This document shows positions 14,083-61,905 of a stretch of 64,000 nucleotides of DNA, piece by piece. The first letter of the stretch is position 1, and every line of letters starts with the position of its first letter. This stretch comes from Neobacillus piezotolerans (GTDB lineage: Bacteria; Bacillota; Bacilli; Bacillales; Cytobacillaceae): NCBI RefSeq assembly GCF_003362805.1, contig NZ_QNQT01000002.1, positions 620,001 through 684,000 of the forward strand, given 5' to 3'. Position numbers and translations under genes: made by a program. The notes beneath the pieces are model-generated. The model saw nothing but the letters and a program-made list of their open reading frames with translations, made no database searches and was not told where the DNA came from.

Positions 14083-14802
14083 GGGACTCGGCCTCCAATG
14101 CGAAAAGTAAAGTATTCGGGAAGTAAAGAACATGATTTTTATGTGTCGGCTTAGTTGAAACGCACGCCAGCCCCGAACGGATAGTAAATCTTATAATTGG
14201 ACCGCATTTGCGGAAGTGGTTCTTAATGGAGATAAATTTAGGATACATCATTTCGCGGGTTTTTTGTGATGGTGTTTTTATGAATGTTGTTGGTTTGTGC
14301 CGGCGGGGAGGTTTCGCGGCTATCGCAAGCGGCCAGGCTGCCGCAAACGAGTGGTTTCCCGGGTGATTCATTAAACCAGGGGGTCCGTCACCTGCTTCAA
14401 AAACGGCAAAAAAAAGTGGGCCCTGCGTCGCAGGCGCCCGTATTATTAAAGGGAGGTTAATTAAGGTAAAGCTAGATAGTTCAAACAAAAAACTGGGTAA
14501 AACAGATGTTCAGTCAGTGTTGCGTATTGAGCAATCTGATTTGCCTTGTCGGTTTAGGCTTCATGCTGTCATGGCCCCACCATGTGCATTCTGCTTATTT
14601 CCTTACGGCATTTCAGGATCGATTCCTGAATTTTGGGTTCGTCTGGGGCTTTTTCATCCCCTTCCTTACCACATCTTTATCATAAAAAAAGGGAATGTAG
14701 ATGGTATGAAGAAGTTGTGTGGTTTTTGTGAAGATGAAAATTGTTCAAATTTGCCGTGCGTTTTAGATGGTATGATGGAGGTGGCGGAAGGAGTGCATAT
14801 TT
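14083..14802. other. 720-base divergent intergenic region
   Basis: This gap between the orphan kinase and the response regulator is unusually long. It holds a G+C-rich, hairpin-rich stretch (about 14300-14440, including an imperfect hairpin with arms GGGCCCTGCG and CGCAGGCGCCC around 14417-14440) and a short hydrophobic ORF described separately. I recognise no named RNA family. Confidence 0.4.
14506..14685 (+). pseudogene. Possible fragment of a spore germination permease
   Basis: A 59-codon hydrophobic frame without a ribosome binding site. It contains LICLVGLGFMLSWPHH and FLNFGFVWGFFIPFLTT, which resemble the last two helices of GerAB-type permeases. The open frame extends about ten codons upstream of the ATG to a TAG, with no start. 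It may be a decayed remnant rather than a gene; chance resemblance is possible. Confidence 0.25.
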
Positions 14803-28259: not shown

Positions 28260-28560
28260 CGCCCACACCTCCTCAAACTTCACAAACTTATTATTGCCGG
28301 AAAAGGCAGGATTATGAAAAGGAAAATAGAAAGGGACTGTCCAATTTCAAACATAGGTTATGGAGACATTTTTATAGGGGACGGCCAGAAGGAAAGGTGA
28401 GGGAAGTGGATTCCGGGGAGAGACAACAAAAATAGAGGCGCCGCAGCAGCCTCTATTTAACAATGAAATTAAGCGTTTTTAAACCAGCCTAAAGGAGGGA
28501 CGCACAATACAACGGGTGCATAAATGGATAGGCTGGAGACGGATTGAAGCGTTAAGTAAT
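28260..28560. other. Intergenic region between gerA and the siderophore locus
   Basis: It contains the gerABC promoter, not identified with confidence, and an inverted repeat AAATAGAGGC / GCCTCTATTT at 28431-28459 with a T-run on the minus strand that looks like a second terminator. No gene was supported. Confidence 0.5.
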
Positions 28561-28587
28561 AAAAAGGCATCCACAAAAGCGGATGCC
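28561..28587 (-). terminator. Terminator of the siderophore-binding protein gene
   Basis: On the minus strand GGCATCC, an eight-base loop, GGATGCC and then TTTTTATT. Confidence 0.85.
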
Positions 28588-28653
28588 GAAGCGATTTTAT
28601 ATAGAAAAGGGGAGGGGGACATGCAAAAGGACATGTATTGCGACCGTTCAAAT

Positions 28654-29619
28654 TTACCCGGCAAAAATCTTTTCAATATCGTCAAGCATCAAGTTTGCGG
28701 CGATGACTCCGCCGGCAGTATTCCAGATTGTATCACTGACTTTATGGACATTGCCGCTTTTGGCAACCTCAAGATTTTTGAAAAGAGGGTCTTCAATCCA
28801 TTGCTTTTCGACCTGTGAAGCTTTTCCGTCGCCTTCTTCATATGTGAAATAGAAGAGGATGTCGCCATCCATCGCCGGGATACGTTCCTTTGTTACATTC
28901 TTTTCGGCAAAATCGTCCACATCCTGGCTTTCCGGCCGGGCAAAACCAATTTCCTCAAGGATAACACCGGAGAATGTATCCTTATGGTAAATGCGGACAT
29001 CGCCAGCCATGAAACGGACCATTGAAACCTTCATGTTGAGCTTATCGCCTAGGGTTCCTTTAATGTCCTCGATTCGCTTGCCGTAATCTGCAAGCACTTC
29101 CTTGCCTTTTTCCTCTTTGTCGACAGCCTTCGCATAAAGCTCAAAGTTTTGCTTCCAGTCGCCGCGGAGCGTCTCCGCGAAAACAGTTGGCGCAATTGCG
29201 TTCAGCTGCTCATAAATGGCTTCCTGGCGCATTTTGTTGCCGATGATCAAATCCGGCTTCAATGCGGCAATCGCCTCGACGTTGACCTGGCTTTCGACGC
29301 CGACTACTTTGGTGTCCTGCATATCTTCCTTAATGTGATCGTACCAAGGGTCGCCAGTCCAGGACTGGACAGCGCCGACAGGCTTAACGCCAAGGGCCAG
29401 CAATGCTTCGGTACCTTCGTTTGTTAAAATCACAACGCGCTCGGGAGTCTTTTCAAGGGTGGTTGTTCCCATCGCATGTTCAACTGTATAGCTTTGATTC
29501 TCCCCGGTTTTAGGCTGTTCCTTGCCCTCCGAATTGTCTTTGCCGTTTCCTCCGCAAGCCGCCAGCAGCAGCACAGCGAAAATCGCCATAATCGAGAATA
29601 TGTACTTTATGTTTTTCAT
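28654..29619 (-). CDS. yfiY: Iron-siderophore ABC transporter binding lipoprotein
   Basis: 321 residues. Signal peptide ends in LLLAAC (about residue 22). The FhuD/FecB-type fold begins with MGTTTLEKTPERVVILTNEG and has IAALKPDLIIGNKM. Closest recognised type is YfiY of B. subtilis, which serves hydroxamate/citrate siderophores with the YfiZ-YfhA permeases and YusV ATPase, all present here in order on the other strand. AGGAGG lies before ATG 29619. Substrate identity is inferred. Confidence 0.85.
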   Translation of the reverse strand: MKNIKYIFSIMAIFAVLLLAACGGNGKDNSEGKEQPKTGENQSYTVEHAMGTTTLEKTPERVVILTNEGTEALLALGVKPVGAVQSWTGDPWYDHIKEDMQDTKVVGVESQVNVEAIAALKPDLIIGNKMRQEAIYEQLNAIAPTVFAETLRGDWKQNFELYAKAVDKEEKGKEVLADYGKRIEDIKGTLGDKLNMKVSMVRFMAGDVRIYHKDTFSGVILEEIGFARPESQDVDDFAEKNVTKERIPAMDGDILFYFTYEEGDGKASQVEKQWIEDPLFKNLEVAKSGNVHKVSDTIWNTAGGVIAANLMLDDIEKIFAG

Positions 29620-29657
29620 GATAGGCGTGCCTCCTAAAAAAAAGTGATAGTTGGTAT

Positions 29658-29672
29658 TGATAATCATTTTCA
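29658..29672. promoter_or_regulatory. Fur box
   Basis: TGATAATCATTTTCA matches the 7-1-7 Fur pattern TGATAAT-n-ATTATCA with one mismatch. It lies about 40 bases upstream of the binding-protein start. Confidence 0.8.
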
Positions 29673-29720
29673 ATGACATCACCATCATAGAATGATAAAA
29701 TAGACCTGTCAATATCTAAT

Positions 29721-36733: not shown

Positions 36734-36810
36734 CAACCATCACCCCTTACTTTAACATGCCCAGTTTTCAAAGAATTTATGGCGGTAATTAAGGTGATCA
36801 CTATAAATGA

Positions 36811-36895
36811 AAAAAAAATCCCGGCACCTGGCCGGAAAATAGGGTGTCTATAGTAAATAGAGAGGGGAAAATGAAAAGTGGGGTAACTTTCCATG
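36811..36895 (-). ncRNA. Candidate small RNA A (three-member family)
   Basis: A transcript of about 85 bases is predicted from a TAGGAT -10 at 36906-36901 to a terminator (CCGGC, five-base loop, GCCGG, then A or T followed by nine T, ending near 36811). Its body has a 5' hairpin GAAAG / CTTTTC with ACCCC in the loop, then TTTTCCCCTCTC. The same parts in the same order occur in B and C. No conserved reading frame exists. Confidence 0.6.
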
Positions 36896-36900
36896 CCTTC

Positions 36901-36954
36901 ATCCTATCCATTCAATATGAACACAATATGAACTTAATGTTAAGATTTCCTAAA
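36901..36954 (-). promoter_or_regulatory. Promoter of RNA A with PhoP-like repeats
   Basis: Reading 5' to 3' on the minus strand: TTTAGG, TTAACA, TTCATA, TTCATA, starting every 11 bases (top-strand positions 36949, 36938, 36927, 36916), nine bases, then the -10 TAGGAT. The B. subtilis PhoP box is four TT(A/C/T)A(C/T)A copies spaced by about five bases, so this is a close match. Confidence 0.6.
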
Positions 36955-37030
36955 GATCCCGGATGTTTCAAATAATATAACATGAGGCCAGGTATCGAAG
37001 TGTGGGATGCCTGGCCATTTATGCAGAGCA

Positions 37031-37207
37031 TCAGACTTCCTTTTTTGCCATCCTTTGGTATAGGAGGATGTAGTAGTCGAGTTCCTGGCTGGCATGGAGG
37101 GTCGCATGATGGTCGATTCCGTGTCGCAGGCTTTTTTCAAGCATATCACTCCGCAACAATTCGATGTAAGCAGACAATCCGTCCAAGTCAAACAGCCGTT
37201 TGCACAT
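37031..37207 (-). CDS. Spo0E-family aspartyl-phosphate phosphatase
   Basis: 58 residues, starting MCKRLFDLDGLSAYIELLRS and containing HASQELDYYILLYQRM, the SQELD core of Spo0E-like phosphatases, which dephosphorylate Spo0A~P and delay sporulation. GGAGG lies eight bases before ATG 37207. It sits 34 bases downstream of the terminator of RNA B on the same strand, so B may serve as its leader. Overall length and helix-turn-helix layout fit the short members of the family. Confidence 0.85.
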   Translation of the reverse strand: MCKRLFDLDGLSAYIELLRSDMLEKSLRHGIDHHATLHASQELDYYILLYQRMAKKEV

Positions 37208-37240
37208 CGCGAGTCCTCCTGTCGGGATTAGTCTAGGTAA

Positions 37241-37322
37241 AAAAAGATCCGGCTAAAAAGCCGGATATGGACTCTATATTAAAAGAGGGGGAGTATGAAA
37301 AAGTTGAGGGGTTCCTTTTCAC
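37241..37322 (-). ncRNA. Candidate small RNA B (three-member family)
   Basis: About 82 bases from the -10 TATGAT (37334-37329) to a terminator ATCCGGC / GCCGGAT followed by CTTTTTTT. The body contains GTGAAAAGGAACC, a hairpin GAAAAG / CTTTTTC, then CATACTCCCCCTC. It is the copy directly upstream of the Spo0E-like gene, so it could be an attenuated leader as well as an independent RNA. Confidence 0.6.
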
Positions 37323-37328
37323 AAACCC

Positions 37329-37382
37329 ATCATACCGCGTGAAAATGAACAAACTATGAACAAACCTTTAACATTCCCTTAA
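37329..37382 (-). promoter_or_regulatory. Promoter of RNA B with PhoP-like repeats
   Basis: On the minus strand TTAAGG, TTAAAG, TTCATA, TTCATT start every 11 bases (top-strand 37377, 37366, 37355, 37344), then nine bases and the -10 TATGAT. Spacing is identical to promoter A. Confidence 0.6.
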
Positions 37383-37542
37383 ATCTGGCACCTATTAAAA
37401 GTTGCGGGAAAGTGAAAAACTCCTTGCTAAAATCCAACAAAAAAGTGCAGGAGAAGCGCGATTGATTTTTTATAAAAGAATTAAAAAGGATTTCCTGCTT
37501 AAATATCGAACCTTAAAGCAAAAGAAAGTGGGGGATTTCGAG

Positions 37543-37998
37543 ATGTACGAATACTTTAATGGGCTCGTGATCAGGGAAGGCACGGAAGGTGTTCCGGCCG
37601 GCAAGGTCGAGGCACTTTTCGAAGATGCAGGATGGGCCAGGAACACGCCCGAATGGCAAAAAGAAAAGTTCACACTAATTTTCAAAAACTCGACATGGGC
37701 CTTCACCGTCTGGGACAGGAATGAAATGATCGCCATGGTCCGCGTGATCTCGGACCAAATCATGGCAGCGACGATTATGGACCTTATTGTCCGCTCAGAC
37801 TACCACGGCAAAGGCGTCGGCCAAAAACTCGTTTCCCTCTGCCTCCAAAAACTCCCGCACGGGGACTGGTTCGCACATACTTCCGCCAACAACTTCCCAT
37901 TCTATGAAAAATGCGGCTTTGAGGTAAAAGACCCCGCCAAAAATGGCACATGCGCCTACTACGGATATATACAAGCCAGAAAGGACGGGCACCGGTAG
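37543..37998 (+). CDS. GNAT-family N-acetyltransferase
   Basis: 151 residues from ATG 37543, which follows GTGGGGGATTTCGAG. Acetyl-CoA binding motif VRSDYHGKGVGQKLVSLCL (about residues 86-104) and NFPFYEKCGFEV near the end are GNAT hallmarks. The frame stays open 47 codons upstream, but that stretch is basic, lacks homology I recognise and has no site. Substrate unknown. Confidence 0.82.
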   Translation: MYEYFNGLVIREGTEGVPAGKVEALFEDAGWARNTPEWQKEKFTLIFKNSTWAFTVWDRNEMIAMVRVISDQIMAATIMDLIVRSDYHGKGVGQKLVSLCLQKLPHGDWFAHTSANNFPFYEKCGFEVKDPAKNGTCAYYGYIQARKDGHR

Positions 37999-38173
37999 GA
38001 AAAGGTGACACGCCTAACCAAAGCGGACACCAAGTGATGTTGGAGATATGCTTCACTTTCCCTATCCACATGATTCTCCAGTTGGATTCTGCTTGAACCC
38101 CAGCACATGAAAAGAGGGGGAGCCATTCCCCCTCCAAACCCGCAACGTAAACTCAGTTATCATCCCTCGCAGA

Positions 38174-38998
38174 TTATTCCTTCGTTTCAGTCCCTGTAAT
38201 CAGCCAAGACCCATCAACATAAGTTACTGTCACACTTATCGTATAATTCGGCCCATACATGATTGAATCAATCTTTTGGACAAGCTGGTACTCCGTATCG
38301 CTTATTTTAGTTGTTTCATACGGTTCATCAGGCAGGAAAAACAATCCCCGGCCCTGCGGCAATAAATAAAGCCCATCGGAAGTTTCCTTAAAAAGCCGGT
38401 CAAACTGTTCATAGACACCCCGTGTAGCCAATCCGGCAAGCTCCCCATACAGCTCCTCTTTCGTTGAGAAGTCTCTGTATTTATAATCTGAATTCGGGAT
38501 AAAGCGGTCTTGTTCAAAAAGCGAATTGAGCTTATCGCTAAAAGTTACGAGAATAGCCATCACATCAGGCTGTGCGGGTGCCTCCGGTGGAAGGTGATCA
38601 GACGGGTTCGAATTGTCGCCTTTAGAGTCATCCACTCCAGGTTCAACGTCAGGCACGGGTTGTTCAGTATCCACATTTTCACTGTCCTCAGGTAATTTTT
38701 CGTTATCGTTAGCCTCTTTGTCATCAGGAATAACGCCTTTATTGCCTGGATTGGCAGCCGGCCCGTGATTGTTACCGCCGAAATGTGGAACGAGTACGAA
38801 TTCATACATACCTCCAAAAAACAAAAGAATGAGCGCCGCACTAATAAGCGATGGGATAATTTTTTTACTTAAAACAGGTCCTTTCCTTCCCGGGCGGACT
38901 TTACGCAGTACATTCTGTTTCATCTCCCCGGTAAACTCTAATTCAGCCAATTCGCCCTTGAGCATCGCTGCCTTTGCTTCCGTTAACCGATTTTCCAT
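38174..38998 (-). CDS. Membrane anti-sigma factor
   Basis: 274 residues: cytoplasmic N-terminal part (about 1-45), one membrane helix (IIPSLISAALILLFFGGMY, about 47-65), a disordered linker rich in Asp, Glu, Pro and Asn, and an extracytoplasmic domain of beta-sheet type. The gene overlaps the end of an ECF sigma gene, the usual sigma/anti-sigma arrangement. ATG 38998 follows GGAAGG; a GTG three codons earlier is possible. Confidence 0.75.
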   Translation of the reverse strand: MENRLTEAKAAMLKGELAELEFTGEMKQNVLRKVRPGRKGPVLSKKIIPSLISAALILLFFGGMYEFVLVPHFGGNNHGPAANPGNKGVIPDDKEANDNEKLPEDSENVDTEQPVPDVEPGVDDSKGDNSNPSDHLPPEAPAQPDVMAILVTFSDKLNSLFEQDRFIPNSDYKYRDFSTKEELYGELAGLATRGVYEQFDRLFKETSDGLYLLPQGRGLFFLPDEPYETTKISDTEYQLVQKIDSIMYGPNYTISVTVTYVDGSWLITGTETKE

Positions 38999-39505
38999 GG
39001 CCGCCACTTCCTTCCAAAAGAATTTGTTTTAAAAGAACCTTTGCCTTGGCCGTGCGTGATTTCACTGTATTTACGTTGATTTCGGTAACGCTCCCAATTT
39101 CGTTCATCGTCAAATCGTGGAAATAGGCCAACACGATCACTTCCCTGTATTTAACTGGCAGCCGGAAAACCGCATTGACCAAACCTGTTCAGCCTTCGCG
39201 AAGTATTGCGTTTCCGCCCCGTGCTGCTGGCCTTTTAACAGACTCGAGAAATATTCGCTTACATGGACTTTTCGGTAATGCCAGCTTTTTATGTGATCCT
39301 TGCAATGGTTCACCGCAATCCGGTACAGCCATGTATGGATTTTAGATTCGCCGCGGAAGCTGTCAGCTTTTTCATAGCATTTGATAAAAATCTCCTGTGC
39401 CAAATCCTCGGCGGTTTGCCGATTCCTGACAAACGAATAAGCGAGATGAAGAATAGATGTCCCATACTGGTCCATAAACCCGCCCAACCAATCATTATCT
39501 TTCAC
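38943..39505 (-). pseudogene. ECF RNA polymerase sigma factor with frameshift
   Basis: Sigma region 2 is intact in the first frame (AYSFVRNRQTAEDLAQEIFI, YRIAVNHCKDHIKSW). Near 39181-39183 the frame runs off; the next frame continues with VNAVFRLPVKYREVIVLAYF and EINVNTVKSRTAKAKVLLKQ, intact region 4. Adding one T to the TTT run on the minus strand would fuse both into a normal protein of about 187 residues. GTG 39505 follows GGGAGG by eight bases. A sequencing error in the homopolymer, a true mutation or slippage are all possible. Confidence 0.8.
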
Positions 39506-39537
39506 ATTCCACACCTCCCAGCCATTCCCTATATACA

Positions 39538-39566
39538 TTTAGACGAACTAAAACCTGGAATGGTTG
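39538..39566 (-). promoter_or_regulatory. ECF-type autoregulatory promoter
   Basis: On the minus strand TCAACC and CGTCTAAA are separated by exactly 16 bases, matching ECF promoters (AAC, 16 bases, CGTC). It sits about 35 bases upstream of the sigma gene, as expected for self-activation. Confidence 0.6.
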
Positions 39567-39645
39567 AAATTAAATGGAAAAAAGAAGGGTTTTTGCGAAA
39601 ATTGGAGAATAAGAGAAATATATATGAGGAAAGGACGAAAAAGAA

Positions 39646-40065
39646 ATGGAGAAGAAACTTTTAAGGGTTGGAACAATGTATTTGCCTGTTTCAGATGTAG
39701 AGGCTGCCACAAAATGGTATACAAGCAAACTCGGGGCGCAGATTAGCTATAAGGACGGGGACAAGGCAATCGCCAATTTCGCCAACCAAAGCTTTTTCCT
39801 TGTAAAAGCGGAAGAGGGGCAGAGCGCGAATTTCCGTGATTCCTACGGCAACGAACGTTTCTCCGTCACATTTGAGGTCGATGGGCTTGAGGCGCTTGAA
39901 GCCATACAAAGCGATTTCCTTGAAAATGGAGTTACGGTAGGCGAAATCGAGAACCGGGGCCACACAGGCAGAAATTTTGTTTTCCGTGATCCTGACGGCA
40001 ACGCATTCGACGTCTGGAGTGAACTCAGCCCAACCTTCAAGGAATACCTCGCGCATGTGAAATAA
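39646..40065 (+). CDS. VOC-family (glyoxalase-like) protein
   Basis: 139 residues, two beta-alpha-beta-beta-beta modules starting MYLPVSDVEAATKWYTSKLG and ending FRDPDGNAFDVWSE. Family members are metal-dependent dioxygenases, isomerases or antibiotic-binding proteins; substrate unknown. AAAGGA precedes the ATG. Confidence 0.8.
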   Translation: MEKKLLRVGTMYLPVSDVEAATKWYTSKLGAQISYKDGDKAIANFANQSFFLVKAEEGQSANFRDSYGNERFSVTFEVDGLEALEAIQSDFLENGVTVGEIENRGHTGRNFVFRDPDGNAFDVWSELSPTFKEYLAHVK

Positions 40066-40276
40066 TGCTGTTGTCCCAGGGATCACCACCGCGAATGAAA
40101 ATATCCAACTGAGTGCCGAACATGAATAGAAAGCGGTCTTTTTTGTGATGAAAAAGGCCTCTTTTTCAATTTAATGGGCAGATTTTTTAAGAAGGATTGG
40201 GTTATAGTGTTGATTTTGGAACTAGTTGGGAATTTATCTGTGTACCAAATAGTTGTTCTATAGTGGTTTTTAAAGA
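40066..40276. other. Intergenic, nothing recognised
   Basis: A+T-rich stretch between the VOC gene and the repeat array. A short hairpin near 40130-40170 (AAAAGGCC region) may end the VOC transcript; nothing else is seen. Confidence 0.3.
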
Positions 40277-40382
40277 TATCCGGAGAGCGTATCTGGGATT
40301 TTTAAAAATATCCGGGAATTTCGATAGATATCCGGGTTTTTAGAGCAAATATCCGGGTTTATAAAGCAAATATCCGGGTTTG
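40277..40382. repeat. Third 21-bp-type array (ATATCCGGG)
   Basis: TATC cores start at 40277, 40290, 40309, 40329, 40350 and 40371; steps are 13, 19, 20, 21 and 21. The clean units read ATATCCGGGTTT followed by A/T-rich bases. Its position is just downstream of the terminator of RNA C on the minus strand. Period and TATC core match the arrays at 1559 and 12568. Confidence 0.75.
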
Positions 40383-40493
40383 TCACATTTTCGACTAATT
40401 TAACCTTCGAAAAAACTCTAAATGTTGCCCGCACTTAGAGCTTCCAACCGATTCTATTATGAGCCTGTTTTGAAAATGGCTGCATCCCAAACA

Positions 40494-40567
40494 AAAAAAG
40501 GTCCGGCACAAGGCCGGACAAAAAAGAGAATTTTAAAGGGGGTATGAAAAAGTTGGTTCCTTTCCAC
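40494..40567 (-). ncRNA. Candidate small RNA C (three-member family)
   Basis: About 74 bases from the -10 TATGAT (40579-40574) to a terminator GTCCGGC / GCCGGAC followed by CTTTTTTTG. Body: GTGTGGAAAGGAACC, AACTTTTTCATACCCCC, TTTAA. No gene follows on the minus strand for 400 bases, so C at least cannot be a leader of a downstream protein gene. Confidence 0.65.
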
Positions 40568-40573
40568 ACACCT

Positions 40574-40627
40574 ATCATACTGCCCAATTATGATAATTCT
40601 ATTACCGTCAGATTAAAAATTCGGTTA
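40574..40627 (-). promoter_or_regulatory. Promoter of RNA C with degenerate PhoP-like repeats
   Basis: On the minus strand TAACCG, TTAATC, GTAATA, ATCATA start every 11 bases (top-strand 40622, 40611, 40600, 40589), then nine bases and TATGAT. The repeats are more degenerate than in A and B, but the geometry is the same. Confidence 0.5.
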
Positions 40628-40691: not shown

Positions 40692-41072
40692 ATGATGGCG
40701 AAACCACTTTTAAAAGGAATGGAAGGGGTATTTATCCCTGTTAAGGATCCGGCTGATTCAGCGAAATGGTACGAGGAGATACTAGGATTTTCACTTCTTT
40801 ACATGGAGGCGGAGGCTGCGGTGATGAAAATTTCCGAACAAGCGCAAACCGTCGTTTGCCTGGTAAAAACGGACAACCACCATCCGATGAAATTTCCGGA
40901 GAACAATTTCGGAGTCGGGAAGTATTATAATTTCATCCCAGAGGACATCGAGGAGACCTACAACCTTTTAATCGAGAAAAAGGTAAAAGTCAATCCGATT
41001 GGAGGGGAAGGCTCAACAAGATTTTTCACGTTTTATGACCCGGACGGAAATCCACTTGGCGTATGCCAATAA
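40692..41072 (+). CDS. VOC-family protein
   Basis: 126 residues: GVFIPVKDPADSAKWYEEIL at the start and FYDPDGNPLGVCQ at the end, a single glyoxalase/bleomycin-resistance-like domain. GGGGGAG lies upstream of ATG 40692. It is a different subfamily from the VOC protein at 39646. Function unknown. Confidence 0.8.
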   Translation: MMAKPLLKGMEGVFIPVKDPADSAKWYEEILGFSLLYMEAEAAVMKISEQAQTVVCLVKTDNHHPMKFPENNFGVGKYYNFIPEDIEETYNLLIEKKVKVNPIGGEGSTRFFTFYDPDGNPLGVCQ

Positions 41073-41944: not shown

Positions 41945-42228
41945 CAAGTACCGCGATGAAAAGGACATGAATTGTTTTTCCGGTTTCCAGAGAGGGAAGG
42001 GTGCTGCGAACTTCCTAACGCAGGAGAACAATTTACCGCCTTTGAGCCGCATCGGGGAACCATAGTATCCGATGCCGTATATGCTGCGTTAAAGCACCAA
42101 AGCCGTAAGCTACCGCCATTGTACATGGAAATGTTCCGAACAGGTGAGGTTGACTTACGGGAAATTGGGTGGAACCACGGGTTATTCGCACTCGTCCCTT
42201 GTTTAGGGACGGGTGTTTTTTTATTTTA
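41945..42228 (+). promoter_or_regulatory. T-box riboswitch 2 (threonine), tandem
   Basis: A second complete T-box, similar to the first: AGAGAGGGAAGG, candidate specifier ACC (in ATTTACCGCC, about 42032), GGGTGGAACCACGGGT, and a terminator CACTCGTCCCTT / AGGGACGGGTG plus seven T. Tandem T-boxes make the response to threonine starvation steeper, as known for B. subtilis thrZ. Confidence 0.9.
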
Positions 42229-49261: not shown

Positions 49262-49286
49262 GAAAACTAATTGTATAAAAAATGTT

Positions 49287-49407
49287 TTCTAGGGTTCCGT
49301 AACATCATGTTAGCCTGGTCCGAGAGAAAACTCACAGCCAATGCTGTGCCACGGAGGGACAAAAGCCTGGGAGATAACTGTTTACAGTAAATCTCTCGGG
49401 TTTTTTG
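49287..49407 (+). promoter_or_regulatory. Guanidine-I (ykkC) riboswitch
   Basis: The conserved ykkC blocks occur in order: CTAGGGTTCCG, GGTCCGAGAG, GCCACGGAGGGAC, AAAAGCC. They are followed by a terminator CCTGGGAGAT / ATCTCTCGGG with T-run (49366-49407). Guanidinium binding stabilises the aptamer and prevents terminator formation, switching on the two exporters downstream. Confidence 0.93.
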
Positions 49408-61639: not shown

Positions 61640-61905
61640 CCCGGAAAAATAAAAAACTCCCGCCTCTACTAAAAGAGACGGGAGTTGGAATCAAACCCGT
61701 GGTACCACTCTGCTTGTTTTTTCAATGAAAAAACCACTCAACTTTGTAACGGGGCAATCCCCGGCCATCCCTACTCGTTTTCAGGAAAGCATCTCCGAAG
61801 TGCGATTCATTATCCGCCTCATGCCAGGCTTCCACCATCCCCGGCTCGCTTCTTTCGGCAAAACAACTACTCTCTTCATCATCGATTTTATATTTTGTTA
61901 TCAAT
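61640..61905 (-). promoter_or_regulatory. T-box riboswitch of argS
   Basis: On the minus strand the T-box sequence AGAGTGGTACCACGGGT (about 61713-61697) is followed by a terminator AACTCCCGTCTC / GAGGCGGGAGTT plus T-run (61686-61647). Upstream AGAGAGTAG and paired G-rich segments form Stem I. CGC in AATCGCACTTCGG is a candidate specifier for arginine, uncertain. Confidence 0.88.

Follow-up and report, generated by a model that had tools for sequence, protein, structure and literature searches.

What do three similarly built segments encode on the minus strand of a 64,000-nucleotide stretch of the Neobacillus piezotolerans genome (contig NZ_QNQT01000002.1, positions 620,001 to 684,000, hereafter the window)? 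A first-pass annotation, made from the letters alone, described them as a three-member family of small minus-strand transcripts with one promoter geometry: four repeats at 11-bp steps, nine bases, a -10 element, a hairpin, a C-rich stretch and a terminator. The order and coordinates of these parts hold on the minus strand, and homologues from two GTDB families, covariation and the reciprocal recovery of promoter and RNA all support the existence of the family. The three segments, here called s1, s2 and s3, belong to a real RNA family, whose structure, promoter geometry and distribution are established by computation. We consider it probable, with appreciable room for doubt, that they are genes for paralogous PhoP-activated, C-rich, trans-acting small RNAs of about 75–90 nucleotides (nt) that damp mRNAs with G-rich Shine-Dalgarno sequences. 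Their parts are given below, with scores from R1, a covariance model built from 14 copies from the genus of the source genome (the source genus) with promoter sequence excluded.

36911–36954, minus strand: s1, four 11-bp PhoP-type repeats (22/24 repeat matches; register seen in relatives)
36901–36906, minus strand: s1, -10 element TAGGAT
36810–36894, minus strand: s1, predicted small RNA (predicted 5′ end 36894; R1 76.4 bits, training copy)
36871–36894, minus strand: s1, 5′ hairpin, with the C-rich stretch at 36861–36870, the terminator stem at 36819–36837 and the T-run at 36810–36818
37339–37382, minus strand: s2, four 11-bp PhoP-type repeats (19/24 repeat matches)
37329–37334, minus strand: s2, -10 element TATGAT
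37239–37322, minus strand: s2, predicted small RNA (predicted 5′ end 37322; R1 66.5 bits, training copy)
To 37294, minus strand: s2, 5′ hairpin, with the C-rich stretch at 37285–37294, the terminator stem at 37247–37266 and the T-run at 37239–37245
40584–40627, minus strand: s3, four 11-bp PhoP-type repeats, the weakest of the three sets (18/24 repeat matches)
40574–40579, minus strand: s3, -10 element TATGAT
40493–40567, minus strand: s3, predicted small RNA (predicted 5′ end 40567; R1 77.4 bits, training copy)
To 40543, minus strand: s3, 5′ hairpin, with the C-rich stretch at 40538–40545, the terminator stem at 40501–40519 and the T-run at 40493–40499

BLASTN with s2 found a match in all eight genomes of the source genus, its own included, and s1 and s2 are adjacent in five of them (G000, G001, G003, G004 and G006). 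A covariance search of relatives, proposed as a check when the segments were first annotated, gave a wider range. R1 matches 61 of the 193 genomes of the GTDB family (E ≤ 0.01), namely all eight of the source genus, 48 of genus g18, which we infer to be Neobacillus as a whole, and five others, with one to seven copies per matching genome. Individual inspection covered the R1 matches other than those of G011, G015 and G068 and many of those from Neobacillus. At locus L019 of N. massiliamazoniensis (855–1842), four of the seven copies in the genome lie within about 1 kb. A second covariance model, R2, was run on 397 genomes drawn from the order and matches ten: the source genome, two of g18, six of genus g100, which belongs to another family, and one taken for chance (L088 in G300, 41.9 bits), where promoter and hairpin are missing by eye. 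At all six g100 loci the promoter is visible by eye, and in the family of g100 seven of the 17 genomes match, all seven among the nine g100 genomes. A further search, confined to plasmid records, gave no match.

The RNA leads to the promoter and the promoter to the RNA. Among 41 copies aligned with R1, 16 lie in the source genus (14 of these trained the model) and 25 outside it. Outside the genus, the four-repeat, nine-base and -10 promoter stands upstream of 24 of the 25 copies, with at most one in 300 shuffles as good. In the opposite direction, a pattern consisting of the promoter geometry and the first RTGRRRNG of the RNA was scanned over 84,980 species genomes and selected 38 stretches. 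Neobacillus and its relatives in the Bacillaceae account for 36 of them, including one from a record titled Paenibacillus sp. BSR1-1. The other two, from Thermodesulfovibrio and a Lachnospiraceae metagenome-assembled genome, were taken as chance. Immediately downstream of the promoter, R1 recovers the RNA in 34 of the 38 stretches with E ≤ 0.1 as the limit and in 31 with E ≤ 0.01; L049, L065 and these two unrelated records give no match. The 34 include three contigs of training genomes, and several more had already been matched in the 193-genome search. Among 22 further copies chosen by their promoter alone, a run of at least four C is present in 20, a CCGGC-type hairpin in 15 and a T-run in 21, as compared with 8.8%, 1.9% and 21%, respectively, of random stretches from the same loci.

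All three RNAs fold into a 5′ hairpin and a terminator hairpin, with z scores against shuffled sequences of -2.85 (s1), -4.38 (s2) and -3.19 (s3). In the 41-copy alignment, 91.5% of cells pair (85.8% when shuffled), 12 of 18 pairs have varied on both sides, and covariation scores 0.260, compared with 0.168 for shuffled and at most 0.079 for slid alignments. The pairing counts lean towards the model, because this alignment was fitted to it, and the two outermost pairs form in only 63% of cells. RNAalifold recovers the same two hairpins from the 41 copies, with 16 pairs, ten of which have changes on both sides. In a first alignment of 14 copies, built without the model, both the fraction of cells paired and the covariation lie above all 500 shuffles. 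The terminators of s1–s3 are of the CCGGC/GCCGG type, and by eye their hairpins are followed by a T-run on the minus strand only, as had been claimed.

Of the unpaired elements, CCCC(C) with U-rich sequence behind it, often AUAUAGA or AUAUAUA, varies least. A run of four C is present in 64 of 67 copies, 41 of which were found with a model that rewards the run. The ACC that the first-pass annotation saw in the hairpin loop stands for the source genus, where ACC or ACCCC is typical, but fails in the Neobacillus copies, which mostly have GGACA. By sequence and folding, s1–s3 thus combine the hairpin, unpaired C-rich stretch and intrinsic terminator by which C-rich anti-Shine-Dalgarno RNAs are recognized. 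The annotation did not recognize a named family, and Rfam agrees: at the gathering score and up to E 10 there was nothing above chance for s1–s3, the best score being 22.3 bits (SorX, gathering score 46.6), and RF01820 (RsaE/RoxS, gathering score 79 bits) gave no match at E ≤ 10.

The promoter was scored by a rule that sums four TTHAYA hexamers at 11-bp steps, nine bases and a -10 hexamer, with a maximum of 30. The four repeats begin at 36954, 37382 and 40627, step by exactly 11 bp and end nine bases before the -10 element at all three sites, which score 28 (s1), 25 (s2) and 24 (s3). In 20 Markov-simulated windows there were on average 0.35 sites of at least 24 and none of at least 25. On its own, s3 is therefore marginal, with only 18 of 24 repeat matches; its homologues support it. 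A strict three-box TTHAYA pattern was discarded, as apart from s1 it returned a single site, which by eye has no suitable -10 element. A position weight matrix trained on 36 promoters of relatives, leaving out the three window copies, L030 (out of register) and L008 (a near copy of L006), gives the three window promoters the top three ranks in the window, s2 leading with 51.1 and the other two scoring 41.0 and 22.1; the next best site reaches 7.7.

The phosphate link that had been suggested for these transcripts gains from the same genome. Upstream of pstS, the best site by the rule scores 28 (TTTACA, TTTACA, TTAAAA and TTAACA, nine bases and TATTCT), and two alkaline phosphatase genes are preceded by best sites of the same layout that score 24 each. 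The matrix trained on the RNA promoters gives the pstS promoter only 2–3 in the right orientation (a reverse-strand match reaches 10.2) and so cannot retrieve pstS unaided, as the simpler consensus rule can. Pho boxes are described as tandem 11-nt direct repeats, Bacillus subtilis included (PMC4415409). Tandem 11-bp PhoP-type repeats at a fixed distance from the -10 element, the sequence mark of the Pho regulon, are thus present at s1–s3, and the identical layout at pstS and the two alkaline phosphatase genes makes PhoP control of the three very likely.

Two further sites in the window score at least 25. One is a shifted register of s1. The other, at 14679–14732 on the minus strand (score 26), has four PhoP-type repeats and TATGAT at the same spacing, and a G+C hairpin with a T-run is seen by eye near 14399. 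A transcript controlled by phosphate may start there and run for about 270 nt between two sensor-kinase operons; on the minus strand, no open reading frame of at least 20 codons lies wholly between the predicted start and the terminator.

The mechanism that we propose follows from these parts, and it is here that we infer PhoP binding, transcription, target pairing and the direction of the effect. At low phosphate, PhoP~P would bind the four 11-bp repeats and bring RNA polymerase to a promoter with a -10 element but without the usual -35, as at pstS, and the RNAs would be made. Between the 5′ hairpin and the intrinsic terminator of each, a C-rich stretch (typically CCCCC, then U-rich sequence) would stay unpaired and would bind the G-rich Shine-Dalgarno sequences (AAGGGGG, GGGGGAG) of chosen mRNAs. 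In the source genus, the duplex may reach on into AUGAAAAAG start regions by way of the hairpin's 3′ arm. Pairing would block ribosome binding and lower the synthesis of dispensable proteins.

Pairing of the C-rich stretch with Shine-Dalgarno sequences is plausible. AAGGGGG, to which the C-run is complementary, often forms the Shine-Dalgarno core here, with 156 occurrences before ATG and 56 for the reversed pattern. For s2, GGGGGAGT sites before ATG were collected in five genomes, and they exceed the reversed control in four of the five. One hundred stretches were examined (24 in G000, 33 in G006, 32 in G003, 11 of 27 in G001 and none of 23 in G007), and 88 downstream proteins, named by reading their sequences, were grouped. 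The sites are common to HMG-CoA lyase and a MoaD-like protein (four genomes each), SmpB (three), arginase (two among those examined) and others. In its own genome, s2 can form 12 nt of pairing with AUGAAAAAGUUG and 9 nt with AGGGGGAGU at the arginase gene rocF, and in the five source-genus genomes computed rocF would allow 8 to 12 contiguous Watson-Crick pairs. In Staphylococcus aureus, RsaE also blocks rocF, and many staphylococcal RNAs direct such C-rich motifs at Shine-Dalgarno sequences (PMC8334554); in the case of FsrA, C-rich pairing has been proposed, and C-rich regions of RoxS bind its targets (PMC8464778). Arginase is the best lead to a target, for the source genus only, and as a family-wide target it was rejected, since the pairing is not kept in Neobacillus.

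Several observations count against PhoP-driven RNAs that pair with Shine-Dalgarno sequences. The repeat scoring uses the hexamer TTHAYA, which we take to be the PhoP consensus. A second pst-like operon of the same genome (L124) is without a site of four 11-bp repeats, nine bases and a -10 element, and for the one remaining copy outside the source genus 41 of 300 shuffles made as good a promoter. In the 14-copy alignment, 41 of the 500 shuffles had at least as many pairs with changes on both sides, and covariation in the 5′ hairpin comes from few sequences because that hairpin is mostly invariant. Three of the 67 copies have no run of four C. Among the predicted targets, GGGGGAGT before ATG shows no excess in G001 (27 against 29 for the reversed control), duplex energy places rocF only sixth of 24 G-rich sites for s2 and singles out no target, and in Neobacillus the rocF site, often AGGGGGA or AGGAGG, fails to track the local RNA.

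A broader form of the proposal is possible but rather doubtful. It supposes a phosphate-sparing regulon in which one to seven paralogous PhoP-driven C-rich RNAs, sharing one hard-wired promoter, silence a wide range of mRNAs whose Shine-Dalgarno sequences are G-rich, reach AUG-AAA-AAG (as in arginase) in the source genus, and may have a dual function through a translated leaderless AUG. A C-rich RNA arm of the phosphate response, if real, would explain how PhoP could turn down the production of numerous proteins together. With the covariance models and the exact promoter rule, the RNA can readily be located and tested, and the question arises of why copies multiply in Neobacillus.

The gene that follows s2 suggests a different role for the segments, that of a cis-acting leader or attenuator:

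37031–37207, minus strand: spo0E-like gene, 58 amino acids, directly 3′ of the s2 terminator (PF09388, E 9.1e-9), possibly a linked neighbour

Under such an arrangement, signal-dependent read-through of the terminator would link phosphate starvation to a delay of sporulation through the downstream gene, chiefly the spo0E-like one. This gene lies 3′ of s2 on the same strand in five of the eight source-genus genomes (G000, G002, G004, G005 and G007), the only feature that points to the sporulation link, and by eye the protein that follows Neobacillus copy L079 resembles it. By eye, it is absent after s1 and s3 in the window and after s2 in G001, G003 and G006, and most of the 36 named loci have no such neighbour, so that no downstream gene stays constant as a leader would need. 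The four clustered copies of L019, moreover, have promoters and terminators of their own. The five genomes therefore leave room for read-through control at s2, but not at s1, s3 or most Neobacillus copies, and as a general account we regard a leader as unlikely.

Slightly less likely still is a protein decoy, in which the GGA near the hairpin loop would bind a protein such as CsrA and the RNA would act by titration. GGA occurs within the first 20 nt of 56 of the 67 copies, and CsrA aids the pairing of the Bacillus small RNA SR1 (PMC8501984). The other 11 copies, four s1 copies among them, have no GGA, each RNA offers one GGA motif only, and a decoy leaves the C-run unexplained.

The 5′ end of the RNA could also be read as a leaderless micro-open reading frame, in a transcript that would start at or next to RUG and give a short M-K-R-T- peptide, with or without an RNA function. 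AUG or GUG stands at a nearly constant distance from the -10 element, the MKRT start is found in 32 of 63 copies, and codon 3 is arginine in 47 of 63, in four spellings; an A to C change in this codon is silent for arginine yet breaks an RNA pair. Outside the source genus, the best-kept 5′ stretch is RUGAARMGGACA, the first 12 nt. Distances between landmarks were taken where these could be recognized, in 15 of 16 source-genus copies and in 24 of the 25 outside it. The distance from start to 3′ arm is a multiple of three in 17 of these 24 copies, but within the genus the remainders 0, 1 and 2 occur in 6, 2 and 7 copies. From arm to terminator they scatter evenly, with 8, 8 and 8 copies outside the genus and all values within it. 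The indels are thus not multiples of three, as had been stated for the window copies, and no frame is kept throughout. RUG also pairs with CAU in the hairpin. As a gene, the minus-strand leaderless frame was rejected, since it is kept for three or four codons only: 14 of 63 frames end after four codons, and the others run from 1 to at least 50 codons (some of the 1–3-codon frames being misregistered). Because of these early stops we do not take it for a protein gene and consider a peptide product improbable, a shade more so than the decoy, although the arginine pattern remains unexplained. Codon-type conservation among homologues on the plus strand, which the annotation had named as a result that would refute its reading, was not seen: frames from ATGAAAAAG shift among the s1 and s2 copies, and a 34-codon frame kept in three near-identical s3 copies (G000, G004 and G006) ends after 14 codons in G001. 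A small mobile or repeated element with a promoter and a terminator aboard by chance would fit the variable copy number and the tandem cluster of L019, but is very improbable given that divergent copies keep the fixed geometry and compensatory changes, that s1 and s2 stay adjacent in five genomes, and that no conserved ends are seen by eye beyond promoter and terminator.

Other features of the window lie near these RNAs or resemble them. Two genes of the glyoxalase fold (PF00903), at 39646–40065 and 40692–41072 on the plus strand, flank s3. With R2, the source genome yields its three copies and one weak candidate at 28560–28638 on the minus strand (29.1 bits, E 0.235; 17.9 bits with the RsaE model, gathering score 79). 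The candidate has a hairpin, CCCCCUCCCCUUUU and a terminator just 3′ of a gene for a siderophore-binding-type protein (28654–29712), and is possibly a C-rich RNA from a 3′ untranslated region. Elsewhere the window contains two T-box leaders, at 41947–42202 (plus strand) and 61671–61891 (minus strand), and a guanidine-I riboswitch at 49278–49375 (plus strand).

We rate the family as C-rich small RNAs of a known type with a new input signal, phosphate. In a review of B. subtilis small RNAs, the only phosphate-linked RNA found in the text available is S1326, which was seen after phosphate stress; it is cis-antisense to cwlO, has a sigma-B-dependent promoter and is of heterogeneous length, unlike s1–s3 (PMC8464778). 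The terms 'sRNA' and 'small RNA' are absent from the Pho review (PMC4415409), and no PhoP-controlled small RNA of Bacillales was found in the open-licence literature, weak evidence of novelty because only open-licence papers were covered. The Pho regulon promoters of pstS and the alkaline phosphatases share with s1–s3 the tandem 11-nt repeats (PMC4415409) and, in this genome, the spacing to the -10 element, but serve protein genes, whereas at s1–s3 they precede a short non-coding RNA. RoxS/RsaE (RF01820) of B. subtilis and S. aureus is likewise two-component-controlled and directs C-rich regions at ribosome-binding sites, with rocF among the RsaE targets (PMC8334554, PMC8464778); it differs in its length of 115 nt, its four C-rich regions and its ResD promoter, where s1–s3 are about 75–90 nt long and have a PhoP-type promoter. 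FsrA of B. subtilis, compared by description rather than sequence, is an 84-nt nutrient-shortage RNA whose C-rich single strand is proposed to act on ribosome-binding sites (PMC8464778), but it serves a Fur-controlled iron response, in contrast to the PhoP-type repeats found here. In Bacillales, the responses to iron shortage and to redox stress each include a C-rich RNA, FsrA and RoxS, respectively; the literature searched showed no such arm for phosphate, the one proposed for s1–s3.

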